From Roseibium porphyridii (GTDB lineage: Bacteria > Pseudomonadota > Alphaproteobacteria > Rhizobiales > Stappiaceae): a stretch of 64,000 nucleotides of DNA. The notes under the pieces were generated by a model. The model made no database searches, was not told the origin of the DNA, and worked only from the letters and a program-made list of their open reading frames with translations. The position numbers and the translations under genes are program-made. Below are positions 12,607 through 18,713 of this stretch, in pieces. Location of the stretch: NCBI RefSeq assembly GCF_026191725.2, contig NZ_CP120863.1:5684001-5748000 (forward strand). Direction: 5' to 3'. Positions within the stretch are counted from its first letter, which is position 1, and each line of letters begins with the position of its first letter.

Positions 12607-13437
12607 TCAAGGTTCATACCTGACATAGGCGAACCGGCGGCTGTCCGGCGCCCAGGAGGGAACATTCAACGTGCCCTGACCGCCAAAAAGGCTGAGCAGT
12701 GCATTGGGTTTTCCGCCCTCCGCCGGTAAAAGACGCAATTCCACATCCTTGTTGGCAGGATGGCCTGACGTACCTGCCTGATAGGCAAGATAGACGATAT
12801 GTCGGCCATCAGGTGAAGGGTGCGGAAACCAGTTGACACGTTCATCCGCAGTTATGCGTTGAAGATCCGATCCGTCCGGCCGCATTCGCCAAAGCTGAAC
12901 ATCGCCGTCCTTTTCGCCATTGAACCAGATCCAGTTGCCGTCCGGCGAATAATCCGGACCATCGCAATGGTCGAAGTCTGTTGTCAGCTGCGTTTCTGCA
13001 CCGCCCGTGACAGAGCAAGTAAATACCTGGAACGAACCGCGCGTCTCTTCGCGTTTGCCGACATAAGCCAGCGTCTGGCCGTCTGGAGCCCATCCATGCC
13101 AATAAGATGGCGTTTTTGATGTCACACGCACCGGCACGCCGCCATCGACCGGAAGCGTATAGATGCAGCTTTCCGGTGTTCGGGACGCATCACTGATGAC
13201 GAGCCACCGTCCGTCCGGCGACAAACCGTGATCGTTGTTAAGTGCCGTTGCAAAACCGGTGTCAATTTCAATCAGGGAAGGTGCGGCAATTGGCAGTCGG
13301 AAGAGACGGCCGTTACCATTTACCACCAGGGTATCACCATCGGGCGTCCAGTTTGGTGCTTCCAGGTGGCGCTCTGTCTCATAAATGATGGTTTCCCTGC
13401 CGGTTGCGATATCAAGCGTTGCAACAATGCTTTTCAA
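12607..13437 (-). CDS. TolB-like PD40 beta-propeller protein (cytosolic)
   Basis: A 276-residue protein made of six or seven beta-propeller blades, each with a PDG-type turn: 'NWTPDGDTLVV', 'GLSPDGRWLVI', 'GWAPDGQTLAYV', 'DYSPDGNWIWF', 'HPSPDGRHIVYL' and 'SWAPDSRRFAYV'. It resembles TolB propellers but has no signal peptide and no TolB N-terminal domain, so it should stay in the cytosol. It starts with TTG at 13437 after CGGGAG. It is 16 bases behind the ATP-grasp ligase gene and probably the last gene of the PspA operon, which suggests a scaffold or sensor role in that system. Confidence 0.8.
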   Translation of the reverse strand: MKSIVATLDIATGRETIIYETERHLEAPNWTPDGDTLVVNGNGRLFRLPIAAPSLIEIDTGFATALNNDHGLSPDGRWLVISDASRTPESCIYTLPVDGGVPVRVTSKTPSYWHGWAPDGQTLAYVGKREETRGSFQVFTCSVTGGAETQLTTDFDHCDGPDYSPDGNWIWFNGEKDGDVQLWRMRPDGSDLQRITADERVNWFPHPSPDGRHIVYLAYQAGTSGHPANKDVELRLLPAEGGKPNALLSLFGGQGTLNVPSWAPDSRRFAYVRYEP

Positions 13438-13453
13438 GGTCCGCTCCCGCGCG

Positions 13454-14620
13454 TCAGTTTTCCTGGATCACATGAGGCACAAAGCGTGAAAGATCCTGTG
13501 TGATCGGATGACGGTCTTCACGGATACAGATGCCGGAAGCCTGACCACCAATGATCCAGGAACCGATCATCGCGTAGTCGTCTCCGAATTTCGGGGGCTC
13601 CGTATAGGCCTGCAGAATATGCCCCTCAGCACCATAGCTTCCCGGTGTCGTCAACTCCTCATTGCCGATCCCGCGCAAGGTTATGTTGGCGCCTTCTCGG
13701 CTGAAAAAGGGCTTGCGAACATGCGCACCCGCGAGAAACGCCTCGTCGGCTTCCCCTTCGAAGAAAGAGGGCAGTAAATTTGGATGCTCCGGAAACATTT
13801 CCCAAAGCAGCGGCAGAATTGCCTTGTTTGAGAGTATCGCCTTCCACGGAGGCTCTATCAGCTGCACCGGAGCGCCGGGCAGATACGGTCCATAATCCTC
13901 CCGGAACATGTCTTCGTAGGGATACAACTTGAACAGCGCATCGATGACAAATGCATCGCCGTCTGCAAACCGGCCCTGCTCGTCAACGCCGATGTCCTCA
14001 ACCGCGACAAAATGCGGGATTAGTCCCGCCTGCTTTGAACAGTCTTCCAGGTAGCGAACTGTCGCACGGTCTTCGTCATGATCCTTCGAGGATGCAAAAT
14101 GAATGTGGAAACCCGGAGCAAACATGGCCGCGAACCGTTCAATCAAGCGGTCCTGCACCGAATTGAACTGATCAGTGTCTTCCGGCAGCACACCGGCCTT
14201 GATCTGTTCTTCCAGCCACATCCATTGGAAGAAGCCGGTCTCGTAAAGAGCCGTAGGTGTGTCGGCATTGAATTCCAGCAGTTTTGCTGGCCCTGTGCCA
14301 TTGTAGAAGAAGTCGAAACGACCGTAGAGCGAAGGCGTTTCGGCTTCCCAGGATTGCCGGATCCAGGACCGGTAATCCTGCGGTATTGCGATCTTCTGTA
14401 AAAGCGCGTCGTCCCGAACGATCCGATCCACAAGCTCCAGGCACATGCCATATAGTTCTTGCGATGGATCCTCGATATCGTCCTCGATCTCCTTGAGAGA
14501 GAACGAATAGGCCCTGCTTTCGTCCCAGTACGGCGCGCCATACATGGTGTGAAAGCCGAAGCCGAGCTTCTCAGCCTCTTCTTTCCAGCCGGGTCTTCCG
14601 GGAAGCTCTAACCGTTTCAT
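13454..14620 (-). CDS. Glutathionylspermidine-synthase-type ATP-grasp ligase (YjfC-like)
   Basis: A 388-residue ATP-grasp amide ligase of the glutathionylspermidine synthase preATP-grasp family, without the amidase half of E. coli Gss. Recognisable parts are 'FFYNGTGPAKLLEFNADTPTALYETG' (in pieces), 'KAILSNKAILPLLWEMFPEHPNLLPSFF' (in pieces), 'RKPFFSREGANITL' and the C-terminal 'GSWIIGGQASGICIRED'. Homologues such as E. coli YjfC are paired with PspA and DUF350 genes. The acceptor is unknown; modification of a peptide or amine at the membrane has been proposed for the family. The gene is 13 bases after pspA. The ATG at 14620 was preferred over an upstream in-frame start inside pspA. Confidence 0.87.
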   Translation of the reverse strand: MKRLELPGRPGWKEEAEKLGFGFHTMYGAPYWDESRAYSFSLKEIEDDIEDPSQELYGMCLELVDRIVRDDALLQKIAIPQDYRSWIRQSWEAETPSLYGRFDFFYNGTGPAKLLEFNADTPTALYETGFFQWMWLEEQIKAGVLPEDTDQFNSVQDRLIERFAAMFAPGFHIHFASSKDHDEDRATVRYLEDCSKQAGLIPHFVAVEDIGVDEQGRFADGDAFVIDALFKLYPYEDMFREDYGPYLPGAPVQLIEPPWKAILSNKAILPLLWEMFPEHPNLLPSFFEGEADEAFLAGAHVRKPFFSREGANITLRGIGNEELTTPGSYGAEGHILQAYTEPPKFGDDYAMIGSWIIGGQASGICIREDRHPITQDLSRFVPHVIQEN

Positions 14621-14633
14621 TGCAGAGGGCGGA

Positions 14634-15305
14634 TCAGAGTTTTTCCAACAGCGCCTGAACATCATTGCGCTGGGGGTTTTCCAGAGCCTTGATCTTTGCT
14701 TCCAGATCAGCGCCGCTTTCAAGTCGGGCTTCCTCGTCAGCTGCTTCCAAGATGGCCTGCTGCTCGGCCTGGCGTTGCTCAAGCCTGGAAAGGCTGTCGA
14801 CGGCACTCGCCAGTTTTCCATCCGAGGCAGTGGTGTTGGTGGACGCAGCTTTCTGCGCCTTGATCAAGGCTTCGTTTGCCTTGGCGCTTTCCATCTTGCG
14901 CTGAAGCGTTTCGATCTTGTTTTCCGACTGGCGGATGGTGCTGTCCATGCGCTCTTCGGTGGACTTGTACTGATCGAAGAGGGCCTGATCGGCCTCGGCC
15001 TTGTCTCGCAATTTCAGAATGCTTTCGATGATCTGAACCGCCAATGGCTCGTCACCCTGCGCCTTCGCGGTGCGTGCAGCCTCGGTGCGACGCTCAATCT
15101 CGCTCATCAATTCAGCGACCGATTTTTCCTTCAGTTTGCGGTTGGCCACCATGCGGGCCTTTTCGTCCTTGGCCGCAGATATCGCCTGCCTCGCCTCGCG
15201 AACTTCCTGCTCCAGGATTGTCATCAGGTTCGCATCTTGAATGGATTCGGCCGCGTCATTGGCATGGCCCTTGAACGCTGTGATCAATTTGCCCCAAACA
15301 CTCAT
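14634..15305 (-). CDS. PspA/IM30 family envelope-stress protein
   Basis: A 223-residue PspA/IM30 protein (E. coli YjfJ type), an ESCRT-III-like membrane-binding protein that oligomerises on damaged membranes. It starts 'MSVWGKLITAFKGHANDAAESI' (in pieces), an amphipathic helix as in PspA. It then continues as a long coiled coil, visible as Glu/Lys/Ala/Gln-rich heptads from about residue 30 to 150. The C-terminal helix region ends 'NDVQALLEKL'. It lies between the DUF2170 gene (31-base gap) and the ATP-grasp ligase gene (13-base gap), so the three are an operon. No PspF-type sigma-54 regulator is nearby. Confidence 0.92.
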   Translation of the reverse strand: MSVWGKLITAFKGHANDAAESIQDANLMTILEQEVREARQAISAAKDEKARMVANRKLKEKSVAELMSEIERRTEAARTAKAQGDEPLAVQIIESILKLRDKAEADQALFDQYKSTEERMDSTIRQSENKIETLQRKMESAKANEALIKAQKAASTNTTASDGKLASAVDSLSRLEQRQAEQQAILEAADEEARLESGADLEAKIKALENPQRNDVQALLEKL

Positions 15306-15336
15306 GTTCCAGATTTCCTTGCTTGATGAAACGGCT

Positions 15337-15783
15337 TTAAATTGCAGCGCTGACCTTGGGGCCAACGTCGGCGGCGAGTTCAAGCGCACTGTTGGAAATA
15401 GTGCGCAGCTCCGTTTCGACGGAATCCAGTGTCGAACGTACCGACATTGCGCCAAACAGTTCGTAATACTCGCGACCGTCGATCATATCGATGGAGAGCG
15501 CACATAGCGGCAGAAGCTTCTTGTGGTTGCGCAGCATCATTGCCTCGAACGCGCCCGGATTGTCCTGTGCGTCGCGCGGCCAAAGCACAGTCGACGTCAG
15601 GATCTGGGTCTCACCAAGAGCCATGAAAAGCGTGATTTCGCCTGCGGAGCGGAGTTGAACCTCAAGAACATCCGATTGTGCTTCGTTGATCTTGCAGCTG
15701 ATCTCACCTTCTGCGAATGACTCCGACGCTTCGAGCGCGTCCTTGAGTTCCTGCAATGTCCAGGGGGTCTGCCGTGCGTTCAT
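15337..15783 (-). CDS. YjfI-like protein (DUF2170)
   Basis: A 148-residue soluble protein of the DUF2170/YjfI family. It combines an N-terminal 'WTLQELKDALEAS' helix with strands such as 'VLEVQLRSAGEITLFMALGETQILTSTVLWP' (in pieces) and a C-terminal 'FGAMSVRSTLDSVETELRTIS' region. Family members always accompany a YjfJ/PspA gene and are small alpha/beta proteins of unknown function, possibly chaperone- or adaptor-like. The ATG at 15783 follows GGAGG; a longer in-frame start at 15831 has none. It is the first gene of the left arm and is divergent from the K+ channel gene. Confidence 0.85.
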   Translation of the reverse strand: MNARQTPWTLQELKDALEASESFAEGEISCKINEAQSDVLEVQLRSAGEITLFMALGETQILTSTVLWPRDAQDNPGAFEAMMLRNHKKLLPLCALSIDMIDGREYYELFGAMSVRSTLDSVETELRTISNSALELAADVGPKVSAAI

Positions 15784-15947
15784 CCAATCGCCTCCAGATT
15801 TTTCGCCGGGTCCACTCCCAGCATCGAACAAGTAGAAGTGAAACCAGACCGTTTCAAGCGGTTTTTGTCATCGGCCTGCGCGTTTGACAACCAGCGTCCC
15901 TCTCGTCACATTATGGGCCGAACACAAGCGGGGGCCATTAGCGCGCT

Positions 15948-17003
15948 GTGCCACTACTGCAACTCGTCATATCACGACTTTATCAGCACATACTGGAGCT
16001 CAAGCTCTGGCTGCTGTCGACATTAATTTGCGGATATCTGCTGATCTCCTGGCTCCTGTTTTTTCTTGCGGGCGAAGCGGGACTGACCAGCAACCCGCTG
16101 ACTTTTATCTATTTCGCCGCCACGACCGCTTCAACAGTCGGGTATGGCGACCTTTCACCGGAGACCGAGGCCGGGCGCATGGTTGCCGCCTTCTGGTTTT
16201 TTCCGGGGGCCCTTTTGATATTCTCTGCAGTTCTCGGCCGGCTGACAGGCATGCTTGTGGAAGGAGTGAGACGTATGGCTGACGGAAACGGTAACTACGA
16301 ACGTATTCAGAACGCCACGGTCATCGTTGGATATCACCGGGACAAGACCCCCCTCATGGTTGAGAACCTGGTCGCGGGTCAGGACGGTGACGAAAAGATC
16401 ATCATTCTTGCAAGCGAAAAGAACGTCGAAGTGCCGGAGGGTGTCCGCTTTGTCAGGGCTGAACGACTGGACGCACTGCAATCACTGCGCCGCGCTGCCA
16501 TTGCCGGTTCGCAGAAAGTGCTCGTCTATGCGGCAACGGATGCGGAAACCTTCAACACCTGTCTGGCGATTCGAGAGCTGAATGAAGTTGTTCATATCGC
16601 GGCTTATTTCGAAGACAGAGACACTGCAAAACGGGCGGGAAAACTGGCCAATATCGAACCGGTGGTCTCCAATGCCTGCGAAGCACTGGTGCGTGCCGCG
16701 CAAGACCCGGGGGCCGGTGAAATTCTGATGGCTCTTTCCACAGCTGGCCTCGGCGCAACGATTTATTCAGCCGTTGTCGAGGCAGACAACCCGACGGCGA
16801 CCGGTATTCTGGAAAAGGCGCTCGCAGGATCAGAAGGAACGTTGATTGCCGTCTCTCAGCCTGAGGACAAAAGCTTTGTCTTCCGGCCCTTCCCGGACAG
16901 TTTGAAGTCCGGCGGATCGGTCTATTACCTTGCCAACAAACGGCTCAGTGCGAGTGAGATCACCTCGGGGCTGGAGGGAGCCGATGTTCGGATCACTGTT
17001 TAA
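15948..17003 (+). CDS. Two-TM potassium channel protein with degenerate RCK domain
   Basis: A 351-residue ion channel. TM1 is 'LWLLSTLICGYLLISWLLFFL' (in pieces, about residues 20-40), the pore helix leads to the K+ selectivity filter TVGYGD near residue 65, and TM2 is 'MVAAFWFFPGALLIFSAVLG'. From about residue 110 a TrkA-N/RCK-like Rossmann domain begins 'ATVIVGYHRDKTPLMV'. It lacks the GxGxxG dinucleotide motif, so the ligand is probably not NAD. It starts with GTG at 15948 and overlaps the DUF2491 gene by 20 bases. Placement in a PspA locus suggests it helps manage ion flux during membrane stress. Confidence 0.9.
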   Translation: MPLLQLVISRLYQHILELKLWLLSTLICGYLLISWLLFFLAGEAGLTSNPLTFIYFAATTASTVGYGDLSPETEAGRMVAAFWFFPGALLIFSAVLGRLTGMLVEGVRRMADGNGNYERIQNATVIVGYHRDKTPLMVENLVAGQDGDEKIIILASEKNVEVPEGVRFVRAERLDALQSLRRAAIAGSQKVLVYAATDAETFNTCLAIRELNEVVHIAAYFEDRDTAKRAGKLANIEPVVSNACEALVRAAQDPGAGEILMALSTAGLGATIYSAVVEADNPTATGILEKALAGSEGTLIAVSQPEDKSFVFRPFPDSLKSGGSVYYLANKRLSASEITSGLEGADVRITV

Positions 17004-17628
17004 GCGCAACAAGGAATGGCAGCCTCCCGAAGTTCTCGGACTGACAATCGGGCGTGGCATCACATTCGACCCGATCGCGCTTCGCCTGCTGCCGGAAGAC
17101 AGCCTGATCGAACGACCCGATTCAACGCTCATGATCACCGCACAAGGCCATTGTGACCTTGGCGAACAATCCCACATGCACCGCTTTTATCCCGATGACG
17201 ATCGGTTTCTGATCCAGTTTCAGGGAGGTGACGGCCAGAGCGACGAGCGTGTCGATGAAATAATGCTCTGGTATTTTTATGACGTGCAGTATCCGTCAGG
17301 CGATCAGGAATGGAACCGCCTGAAACAGTCCATTCGCCAGAACAGCTACACGCTGGAAGGCGAAGACGGCAACCATCGGTATGAGCGCGCCTGGTTCGAT
17401 ACTTCAACCGGCCCGGAGGATCCGATGACTTATTGGGAGGAGGTTTGCGACGACCGGTCTGGCAGCGGTCGCAGGCGAATCTTCCAAACCGCCATGTTGT
17501 ATGCGCGCGGCCTGAAAGACGGTCGCGATGAAATGCTTCTTATAAATATGGAAGAGCCGGACAATGCGGAACGCAGCATTGCGTTCATGATCGGCTTTCC
17601 CCTCGAACGACATAATTTTTCAGTTTAA
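16984..17628 (+). CDS. DUF2491 family protein (YjfK-like)
   Basis: A 214-residue soluble protein of the DUF2491/YjfK family. It begins 'MFGSLFKRNKEWQPPEVLGLTIGR' (in pieces), then 'GHCDLGEQSHMHRFYPDDDRFLIQFQGG' (in pieces), 'EIMLWYFYDVQYP' and 'TGPEDPMTYWEEVCDD'. The ATG at 16984 follows GGAGG and lies within the end of the channel gene, so translation is probably coupled. The family is known almost only from PspA/DUF350 operons and has no established biochemical role. Confidence 0.85.
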   Translation: MFGSLFKRNKEWQPPEVLGLTIGRGITFDPIALRLLPEDSLIERPDSTLMITAQGHCDLGEQSHMHRFYPDDDRFLIQFQGGDGQSDERVDEIMLWYFYDVQYPSGDQEWNRLKQSIRQNSYTLEGEDGNHRYERAWFDTSTGPEDPMTYWEEVCDDRSGSGRRRIFQTAMLYARGLKDGRDEMLLINMEEPDNAERSIAFMIGFPLERHNFSV

Positions 17629-17656
17629 TTCACTTCTGACTTCAGTGGAGACCAAA

Positions 17657-18067
17657 ATGGCCGACCTTCAGGCGTCCCTCACAGGCATTCTTCCCTTTAT
17701 CGCCTATTTCGCCGCAGCAATCGCAATGCTGCTGATTTTCATGAAAATCTACACCGTCATGACACCGCATGACGAAATGGCCTTGATCAAGGAAAACAAT
17801 GTTTCGGCATCGGTCGTCTTCAGCGCGGCTTTTCTAGGTTTCTCTTTGCCGCTCGCCAGCGCGGCGGCCAACTCGCTGAACATTGTCGATTTCATTATCT
17901 GGGGCATTATCGCCTGTTTCGCGCAACTCGTCGTCTATCAGATTTTTCGCCGCTTCTACCCAAAGATCACCGACCGCATTGAACGAGGTGAAATTGCGAT
18001 CAGCATCAAGCTCGCGGCCATTTCGATCACTGTCGGCCTCCTGAACGCAGCCTGCATCACCTACTGA
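17657..18067 (+). CDS. DUF350 family membrane protein (YjfL-like)
   Basis: A 136-residue inner-membrane protein with four hydrophobic segments: 'GILPFIAYFAAAIAMLLIFM', 'ASVVFSAAFLGFSLPLASAA', 'IVDFIIWGIIACFAQLVVYQIF' and 'ISIKLAAISITVGLLNAACI' (read in pieces). This is the DUF350/YjfL pattern of two tandem two-helix units. GTGGAG lies before the ATG at 17657. The family is consistently linked to PspA and ATP-grasp ligases, and its role is unknown. It is 28 bases behind the DUF2491 gene. Confidence 0.87.
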   Translation: MADLQASLTGILPFIAYFAAAIAMLLIFMKIYTVMTPHDEMALIKENNVSASVVFSAAFLGFSLPLASAAANSLNIVDFIIWGIIACFAQLVVYQIFRRFYPKITDRIERGEIAISIKLAAISITVGLLNAACITY

Positions 18068-18140
18068 CAATCCTGGACGAACGTATCCGAGACAATTGTC
18101 CAAATTGCATCAGACCGATTTGACGGTCGGGAGAAAATTC

Positions 18141-18713
18141 ATGAAACGCTCGAAGTCGATCAAGCTGGTGGTCATGGCAACGACATCAGTCACGCTTGCC
18201 AGCTGCTCCGATGAACCGGACCTCGAAGGCCGGGTCTACAAGACCGAAGAAGAGTGCGTTACCGACAGCTTTGTTCCAGATGAAGTCTGCGCACAGGTCA
18301 TTTCGGCCGGCAAGCAGATTCACCAGACCTCGGGGCCACGCTACAACACAGTCAATCTGTGCGACGAACAACACGGCAACAATTCCTGCCTTTTCGAAAC
18401 GGAAAGCGGACGCGATTTTTATTCGCCGCAACCGTCCGGCTATTTCGTGACCGGGGCTCTTGCCGGACTGACAGGTGCTGTCGCCAGCCAGGCTCTGATG
18501 AACAACATCAGGCCGGTTTATCCGGAGCGTGGCAGTAGGCGCTACTATACATCCGGCGGATATTATGTCGGCAGCTACAGCGGTGGCAGCTGGCGAACAT
18601 ACAACGATGCTGTCAAGACGGCGCCCAAGCCCGCGAGAGTTCAGACCAGAACATCCGTTGCCTCGCGTGGCGGTTTCGGCAGCCGATCCAGTTCCGGGTC
18701 CCGCGGCGGCTAG
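18141..18713 (+). CDS. DUF1190 lipoprotein (YjfM-like)
   Basis: A 190-residue probable lipoprotein. A positively charged start (MKRSKSIK) leads to a hydrophobic stretch and the lipobox LASC at about residues 18-21. The mature part has the DUF1190 features 'YKTEEECVTDSFVPDEVCAQVI' (in pieces), several Cys residues, a Tyr/Gly-rich middle and a Ser/Gly/Arg-rich disordered tail ('SRSSSGSRGG'). The ATG follows GGGAGAAAATTC. It is the last gene of the right arm of the PspA locus and is followed by a hairpin. It is presumably the outer-membrane or periplasm-facing component. Confidence 0.83.
   Translation: MKRSKSIKLVVMATTSVTLASCSDEPDLEGRVYKTEEECVTDSFVPDEVCAQVISAGKQIHQTSGPRYNTVNLCDEQHGNNSCLFETESGRDFYSPQPSGYFVTGALAGLTGAVASQALMNNIRPVYPERGSRRYYTSGGYYVGSYSGGSWRTYNDAVKTAPKPARVQTRTSVASRGGFGSRSSSGSRGG

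Follow-up and report, generated by a model that had tools for sequence, protein, structure and literature searches.

Here, we describe a ligase and its candidate protein substrate in a 64,000-nucleotide stretch of the Roseibium porphyridii genome (contig NZ_CP120863.1, positions 5,684,001 to 5,748,000; henceforth the window). The pair, an ATP-grasp ligase of the YgiC/YjfC type and an exported DUF1190 lipoprotein with a conserved C-terminal tail, lies in a locus that is the Roseibium/Labrenzia copy of a yjf-type PspA envelope system. The gene cluster itself is already known; what is new, our data suggest, is that the ligase is paired with a tailed protein and that the tail is the likely modified site. 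Judging from sequence comparisons, we consider it probable that the ligase caps the C-terminus of the tailed envelope protein with spermidine before export. The features concerned are:

13454..14620, minus strand: YgiC/YjfC-type ATP-grasp ligase, predicted protein-C-terminus--spermidine ligase (Pfam GSP_synth, 6.9e-146)
18141..18713, plus strand: DUF1190 lipoprotein (YjfM/YgiB-like), predicted substrate (Pfam, 5.5e-22; KRS N-terminus, lipobox Cys22, four invariant Cys)
18663..18713, plus strand: C-terminal tail of the DUF1190 protein, SRGGFGSRSSSGSRGG, including the stop codon (translation of the open reading frame (ORF), alignments)

The tail and its linkage to YgiC-type ligases

The C-terminus of the window DUF1190 protein consists of an RGGFG motif, a Ser/Gly/Arg linker, and a final Gly-Gly. 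In an alignment of 64 homologues, R3, four Cys, P96, G100, R176, G178, and F179 are invariant, the last three belonging to the motif, while its residues G177 and G180 are conserved at 90%. A database search with the window protein gave 86 homologues, 74 of which end in Gly-Gly, as do 59 of the 85 DUF1190-like ORFs that were found first; a further 13 of the 85 end in Gly-Ser. The tail is under selection in Roseibium: of the final 20 codons, compared over 10 orthologues from Roseibium/Labrenzia, 15 have synonymous changes only, 2 are invariant, and 3 have residue-changing substitutions.

Because 57 of our first 100 ligase loci had been picked via DUF1190 matches, linkage counts on this set are biased, and we rely on a held-out set described below and on an even draw, i.e., a search for the PF03738 family over 299 Pseudomonadota genomes. 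The draw yielded 57 YgiC-type ligases and 10 of the type of GspSA (glutathionylspermidine synthetase/amidase), besides one fragment and one match below the cut-off; loci whose contig ends at the ligase were left out (L020 and L023 from the first set, L238 from the held-out set). A tailed partner is present at 56 of the 57 YgiC-type ligases, whereas none was found at the 10 GspSA loci; among other ORFs, the rate is 19 in 10,496. A previous, sequence-only reading of the window had proposed that the ligase could modify a partner, which it may well do.

Pfam DUF1190 proteins adjoin 39 of the 57 ligases, and all 39 carry an RGGFG-type tail. At 17 of the 18 loci without such a neighbor, a different anchored protein bears the tail and is encoded at most 20 nt from the ligase in 15 cases, at 240 nt in L142, and at 2.3 kb in L141. 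A second small protein with a KRS-type anchor and a Gly/His-rich end (HGGHAHGGG; L142:4717-5043) is located between the tailed protein and the ligase of L142. The Streptomyces locus L022 encodes a 98-residue lipobox protein, 26 nt upstream of the ligase, that ends in VTRGGIGKSHSGSSGG; it has 541 homologues, and a Gly-Gly end is present in 120 of 120 among the matches listed. For a partner of the Pseudomonas type, Gly-Gly ends were counted in 28 of 34 homologues.

All 18 non-DUF1190 partners (the 17 of the draw and the Streptomyces protein) have a hydrophobic N-terminal segment, with a positive charge that is higher before than after the segment in 17. A lipobox was found in 5 of 19 proteins when the window DUF1190 protein, itself among the five, was added to these 18, and over all partners the hydrophobicity threshold is passed by 93 of 97. 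By regular expression (regex), a KRS-type N-terminus precedes the hydrophobic segment in 74 of the 97 tailed partners, the window protein included; both protein ends are conserved and the middle is variable.

The first 97 partners form 23 body clusters, which do not represent a tree and of which one comprises 59 partners and one is a spurious L117 ORF selected by the automatic rule; 15 of these 23 end in Gly-Gly, whereas shuffling each tail 3000 times gave 1.8 such clusters on average and never more than 8. For anchor and chain-end counts, the real L117 DUF1190 protein, which ends in WGG, was used. Among cluster representatives, the linker spans 4 to 24 residues, with both ends of the tail kept and its middle variable.

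The chain ends of the 56 even-draw partners are GG in 44, GS in 6, SS in 3, and GT, AS, and GE in one each, and Gly is among the last two residues in 52. Such ends raise the alternative that the ligase acts on the tailed C-terminus but uses a different amine, i.e., that of a protein lysine, a phosphatidylethanolamine-type lipid, or the cell wall, which would tether the protein as in ubiquitin-like or Atg8-type ends. In its sequence, the Gly-Gly end of the window protein and of 44 of the 56 partners does recall ubiquitin-like modifiers, whose C-terminal Gly-Gly is joined to an amine at the expense of ATP, and spermidine is not singled out by the present data. However, the closest characterized enzymes are named peptide--spermidine ligases, and the partner already possesses a lipid or transmembrane-like N-terminal segment. 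We regard a different amine as quite unlikely.

A candidate protein-C-terminus--spermidine ligase

Among solved structures, the window ligase is closest to the E. coli chains of YgiC (7uk8, 3.7e-126) and YjfC (7uk6, 7.4e-123), which places it in the YgiC/YjfC type with stand-alone GSP_synth. GspSA, which has a homologous synthetase domain, joins the Gly of glutathione to spermidine. We rejected an assignment of the window ligase to GspSA: at 388 residues (selected ATG) compared to 620 to 646 for the ten GspSA-type controls, it lacks a fused amidase domain, and the GspSA stretch S335-A336-S337 is replaced by TPT in the window and in the YgiC-type ligase group, which further differs from GspSA in its tailed protein partner. 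Seven positions with roles in gss (R316, D318, E330, N332, K498, K533, and R598 in E. coli gss numbering, in short RDENKKR) are retained by 110 of the 111 sequences in an alignment of ligases and GspSA; the window enzyme shares them with E. coli YgiC and YjfC, and L126 is the lone exception. Conserved RDENKKR positions together with a SAS-to-TPT change fit an enzyme that kept its chemistry and changed its acceptor, for which the free end of the neighboring protein is the obvious candidate.

Both E. coli YgiC and YjfC carry the RefSeq product name peptide--spermidine ligase, and for this reason spermidine capping of the tail appears to be the best explanation. Pederick 2023 reportedly found peptide-spermidine ligase activity without a protein substrate. 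In the literature that we searched on the topic, which excluded this most relevant paper, we found neither the pairing of ligase and tailed protein nor a natural acceptor. The class of the reaction, which the sequence-only reading had given as open, is partly known from the product names. YgiC and YjfC are also termed peptidylpolyamine synthetases (PMC12568646), and according to Sui 2012 (cited in PMC12506659), YgiC does not have the activity of Gsp synthesis. The genome of R. porphyridii has an nspC match barely above the cut-off (410.1 vs 409.05) and no match for an aminopropyltransferase. nspC without an aminopropyltransferase is consistent with the carboxyspermidine route.

In the reaction that we propose, the enzymatic core would consist of two parts, a protein that is exported and membrane-anchored (in the window, the DUF1190 lipoprotein) and a cytosolic YgiC/YjfC-type ATP-grasp ligase. 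The ligase would recognize the tail composed of RGGFG, the flexible Ser/Gly/Arg linker, and a free, usually Gly-Gly, end, activate the C-terminal carboxylate in an ATP-driven step, and couple it with one of the primary amines of spermidine, either ahead of export or in its course. On the outer face of the membrane, the resulting envelope protein would bear a polycationic cap, which might stabilize the stressed anionic envelope or report the polyamine level. PspA, DUF2170, DUF2491, DUF350, and the K+ channel would constitute a stress module around this ligase-tail unit. A published precedent exists for the chemistry: the C-terminal Gly-Gly of SUMO (LGG-COOH) and ubiquitin is joined to spermidine (PMC12270671, with a spermidine mass shift of +127.147), like in our proposal, but by eukaryotic E1/E2 enzymes and not by an ATP-grasp ligase.

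Held-out loci, exceptions, and controls

The prediction and the rule were fixed before we retrieved 28 further YgiC-type loci, 27 of which were evaluable. By the strict rule, a tailed partner is present in 23 of these 27, and TPT occurs in 27 of the 28 held-out ligases. Several observations, collected here, weigh against spermidine capping of the tail. One main difficulty is topology: the partner is exported, and the end of its tail comes to lie outside the cytosol, while the ligase needs ATP inside. Another lies in the chain ends, which are not always Gly (10 of the 56 even-draw partners end in Ser) and in which Gly-Gly is less constant among the 23 held-out partners (11 GG, 9 Ser, and one each of SG, GA, and AT); Ser-ending tails would require a looser acceptor site. 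In addition, the tail could serve binding and not conjugation. In one alternative, the ligase would make a small peptide-spermidine metabolite, with the tail serving as a docking site or pseudo-substrate by which the ligase is anchored or regulated or its product is sensed. Docking accounts for both the linkage and RGGFG, and it tolerates non-Gly ends such as those of the 12 held-out partners that lack Gly-Gly, yet on its own it leaves unexplained why Gly-Gly is enriched over shuffled tails behind a linker of such variable length. We consider this explanation rather unlikely.

The remaining counterevidence comes from individual loci. The only miss among the 57, L152, is the second ligase of genome G419 and has no partner in its locus. 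In L126, from the same genome and also among the 57, the ligase beside a tailed DUF1190 protein has lost the seven-position set (RDGCHRR), which the L152 copy retains; the intact L152 ligase may act in trans on the tailed DUF1190 protein of L126. Likewise, L235 has no tailed partner in the locus, and a tailed DUF1190 protein is encoded elsewhere in the genome (L267). The DUF1190 ORF at L233:4132-4794 has RGGFG but another end, with the Gly-Gly end lying in another frame, a difference that is either natural or an assembly frameshift. In L239, the adjoining lipobox protein ends in SSFGG and has a variant motif that fails the strict rule, and L250 is a second ligase without a strict-rule partner and with an altered pocket (MPG for TPT and a changed R598 position). 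Six low-scoring homologues had been predicted to be without a match, which held for four; we judge the regex matches in the other two, L264 and L263 (in the latter an ORF of 66 residues on the opposite strand), to be chance. Finally, a DUF1190-like ORF in L083, from genome G219 without a GSP_synth match, ends in GS with a loose GGVG.

The converse controls bear on a simpler explanation, in which the tail is a Gly/Ser-rich disordered end kept for unrelated reasons, and the linkage reflects ordinary operon conservation of one fast-evolving family. The composition of the tail (28% Ser, 28% Gly) agrees with this, and the partners may represent one diverged family, as many share the KRS-type N-terminus and cysteines. 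However, the absence of tailed partners from all GspSA loci argues against it, as do five DUF1190-like ORFs that are not adjacent to a ligase, which all lack RGGFG (a small sample, with one more weak G317 match outside the set). Besides the L083 ORF, these comprise L084 and L085, from a genome whose only ligase is found at another site together with a tailed partner (L146), and two small tail-less ORFs in L082 (L082:11188-12003), at distances of 0.9 and 1.4 kb from a ligase with a tailed DUF1190 partner of its own. This tail-less pair sits downstream of the complete tailed unit. Further evidence against a merely disordered end is provided by 19 ligase-less DUF4178 loci, 13 of which are without a regex match, while none of the 6 matching ORFs ends in GG or GS. 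Since DUF350 was matched in 16 of these 19 loci (E 0.01 or better; 8 of the 16 weak, below 21 bits), we also dismissed the possibility that the tail is tied to DUF350 and not to the ligase. A Gly-rich 63-residue ORF in one ligase-less DUF4178 locus (L182:7498-7689) is tail-like but ends in HK and is ambiguous. Moreover, the tail is retained in trans in two genomes with an intact ligase elsewhere. We deem a disordered end kept for unrelated reasons very unlikely.

The surrounding operon and implications

The ligase and DUF1190 genes are part of a set of eight in two tight divergent arms, as the sequence-only reading had described; all ORFs were found in place with a Pfam match for each. The other features of the locus are:

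12607..13437, minus strand: TolB-like PD40 beta-propeller ORF (TTG start; Pfam PD40/TolB-like repeats, 1e-22)
14634..15305, minus strand: PspA/IM30, YjfJ-like (Pfam PspA_IM30, 8.9e-28; selected start codon)
15337..15783, minus strand: DUF2170, YjfI/BacA-like (Pfam, 1.6e-33; solved homologue 8q8o, 2.8e-14; selected start codon)
15784..15947, no strand: divergent intergenic region between the two arms (consensus scan)
15948..17003, plus strand: 2-TM K+ channel, MthK-like, with TVGYGD filter and RCK-like part (Pfam Ion_trans_2, 1.8e-13)
16984..17628, plus strand: DUF2491, YjfK-like (Pfam, 7.3e-53; selected start codon)
17657..18067, plus strand: DUF350 membrane protein, YjfL-like (Pfam, 3.2e-36)

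The minus arm has the order DUF2170, PspA, ligase, propeller, and the plus arm the order K+ channel, DUF2491, DUF350, DUF1190. Computed from ORF coordinates with selected start codons (ORF lengths from the first start codon are upper bounds), the gaps amount to 16 nt between propeller and ligase, 13 nt between ligase and PspA, and 73 nt between DUF350 and DUF1190; the channel and DUF2491 ORFs overlap. Neither a sigma-70-like nor a sigma-54-like promoter consensus has a match within the divergent gap. Residues 31-240 of the channel align with MthK (7.7e-11), and its ORF contains TVGYGD, identifying it as MthK-like. The solved structure 8q8o is that of the DUF2170 protein BacA (PMC10948618). DUF2491 has no match to solved structures up to E 1, and four weak matches of the DUF1190 profile (E 0.07 to 0.55) to unrelated molecules were taken as chance.

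E. coli yjfIJKLMC is made up of six of the families of the locus, in agreement with the earlier comparison; the E. coli run lacks the channel and the propeller and has one direction. E. coli ygiBC consists of the DUF1190-ligase pair alone, and both E. coli DUF1190 proteins, YgiB and YjfM, bear the tail. yjfIJKL are reported to be upregulated in heat-evolved E. coli strains (PMC12492005).

To delimit the system, we counted members at 100 YgiC-type and 10 GspSA-type ligase loci. Of the 100 YgiC-type loci, 29 combine DUF2170, PspA, and DUF2491, the last being present in all 29 DUF2170-PspA clusters, and 69 encode DUF350. The K+ channel belongs to 23 of the 29 clusters and to no ligase locus without PspA; both PspA-bearing held-out loci (L236, L237) carry it as well. 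In Labrenzia sp. DG1229, the channel gene is represented by two ORFs (L008:7614-8731). The propeller, by comparison, occurs in 4 of the 29 clusters (and of the 100 loci), all from Roseibium/Labrenzia: it is adjacent in the window, L002, and L003, is separated by 8 kb from the ligase and by 4 kb from the closest gene of the cluster in L004, and is missing from the examined stretches of L005 to L010. We therefore excluded it as a system member and judge it to be a lineage-specific neighbor or bystander. Nor is it the TolB of Tol-Pal, scoring 95.6 bits against an NCBIfam equivalog cut-off of 343.15 bits. The sequence-only reading had taken channel and propeller as integral to one eight-gene system and proposed to look up their co-occurrence with the ligase set in related genomes. 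The 16-nt spacing of the propeller in the window, its adjacency in two further loci, and the recurrent channel favor that view, which the confined and once non-adjacent propeller and the lack of the channel in 6 of the 29 clusters, E. coli among them, render hardly tenable; the channel is a recurrent member, the propeller is not.

Divergent arms also occur in L089, L125, L127, L129, and L133, of the same class as the window, and in L124 and L128, where the ligase sits in the opposite arm. In E. coli (L136) and Photorhabdus (L016), as in several loci outside this class, the layout has a single direction. All seven families of the window other than the propeller correspond to group 3 of the PspA-CesT/Tir operons, described in section 19 of Ravi et al. 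2024 (PMC11237479) as a DUF2170-PspA dyad with ATP-grasp ligase, K+ channel, DUF350, DUF1190, and DUF2491; unlike this group as presented there, the window genes stand in two divergent arms. Because its place in the operon is already in print in that section, the channel is not a new addition. The paper terms DUF1190 a metal-chelating lipoprotein, and its main text contains neither the word "glycine" nor "TolB". Seven families, including the channel, had been described, while the best clue to the substrate, the DUF1190 tail, had gone unmentioned in the sequence-only reading.

Both the YgiC/YjfC-type ligases and the DUF1190 proteins are present in E. coli as well as in many further Pseudomonadota. 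If our proposal is correct, an orphan enzyme and an orphan lipoprotein would become one testable reaction. From the sequences compared here, we lean towards viewing the RGGFG-to-Gly-Gly tail as a portable C-terminal conjugation tag, by which anchored envelope proteins with widely differing middles would be capped with spermidine by their cognate ligase. Such a tag would correspond, in bacteria, to ubiquitin-type ends, with an ATP-grasp enzyme acting on it, and would define an unrecognized class of envelope proteins that are polyaminated at the C-terminus. This class would span Pseudomonadota and Streptomyces and include E. coli YgiB and YjfM. PspA-type stress systems would thereby gain a covalent polyamine output, a bacterial parallel to the recent SUMO-spermidine conjugate.

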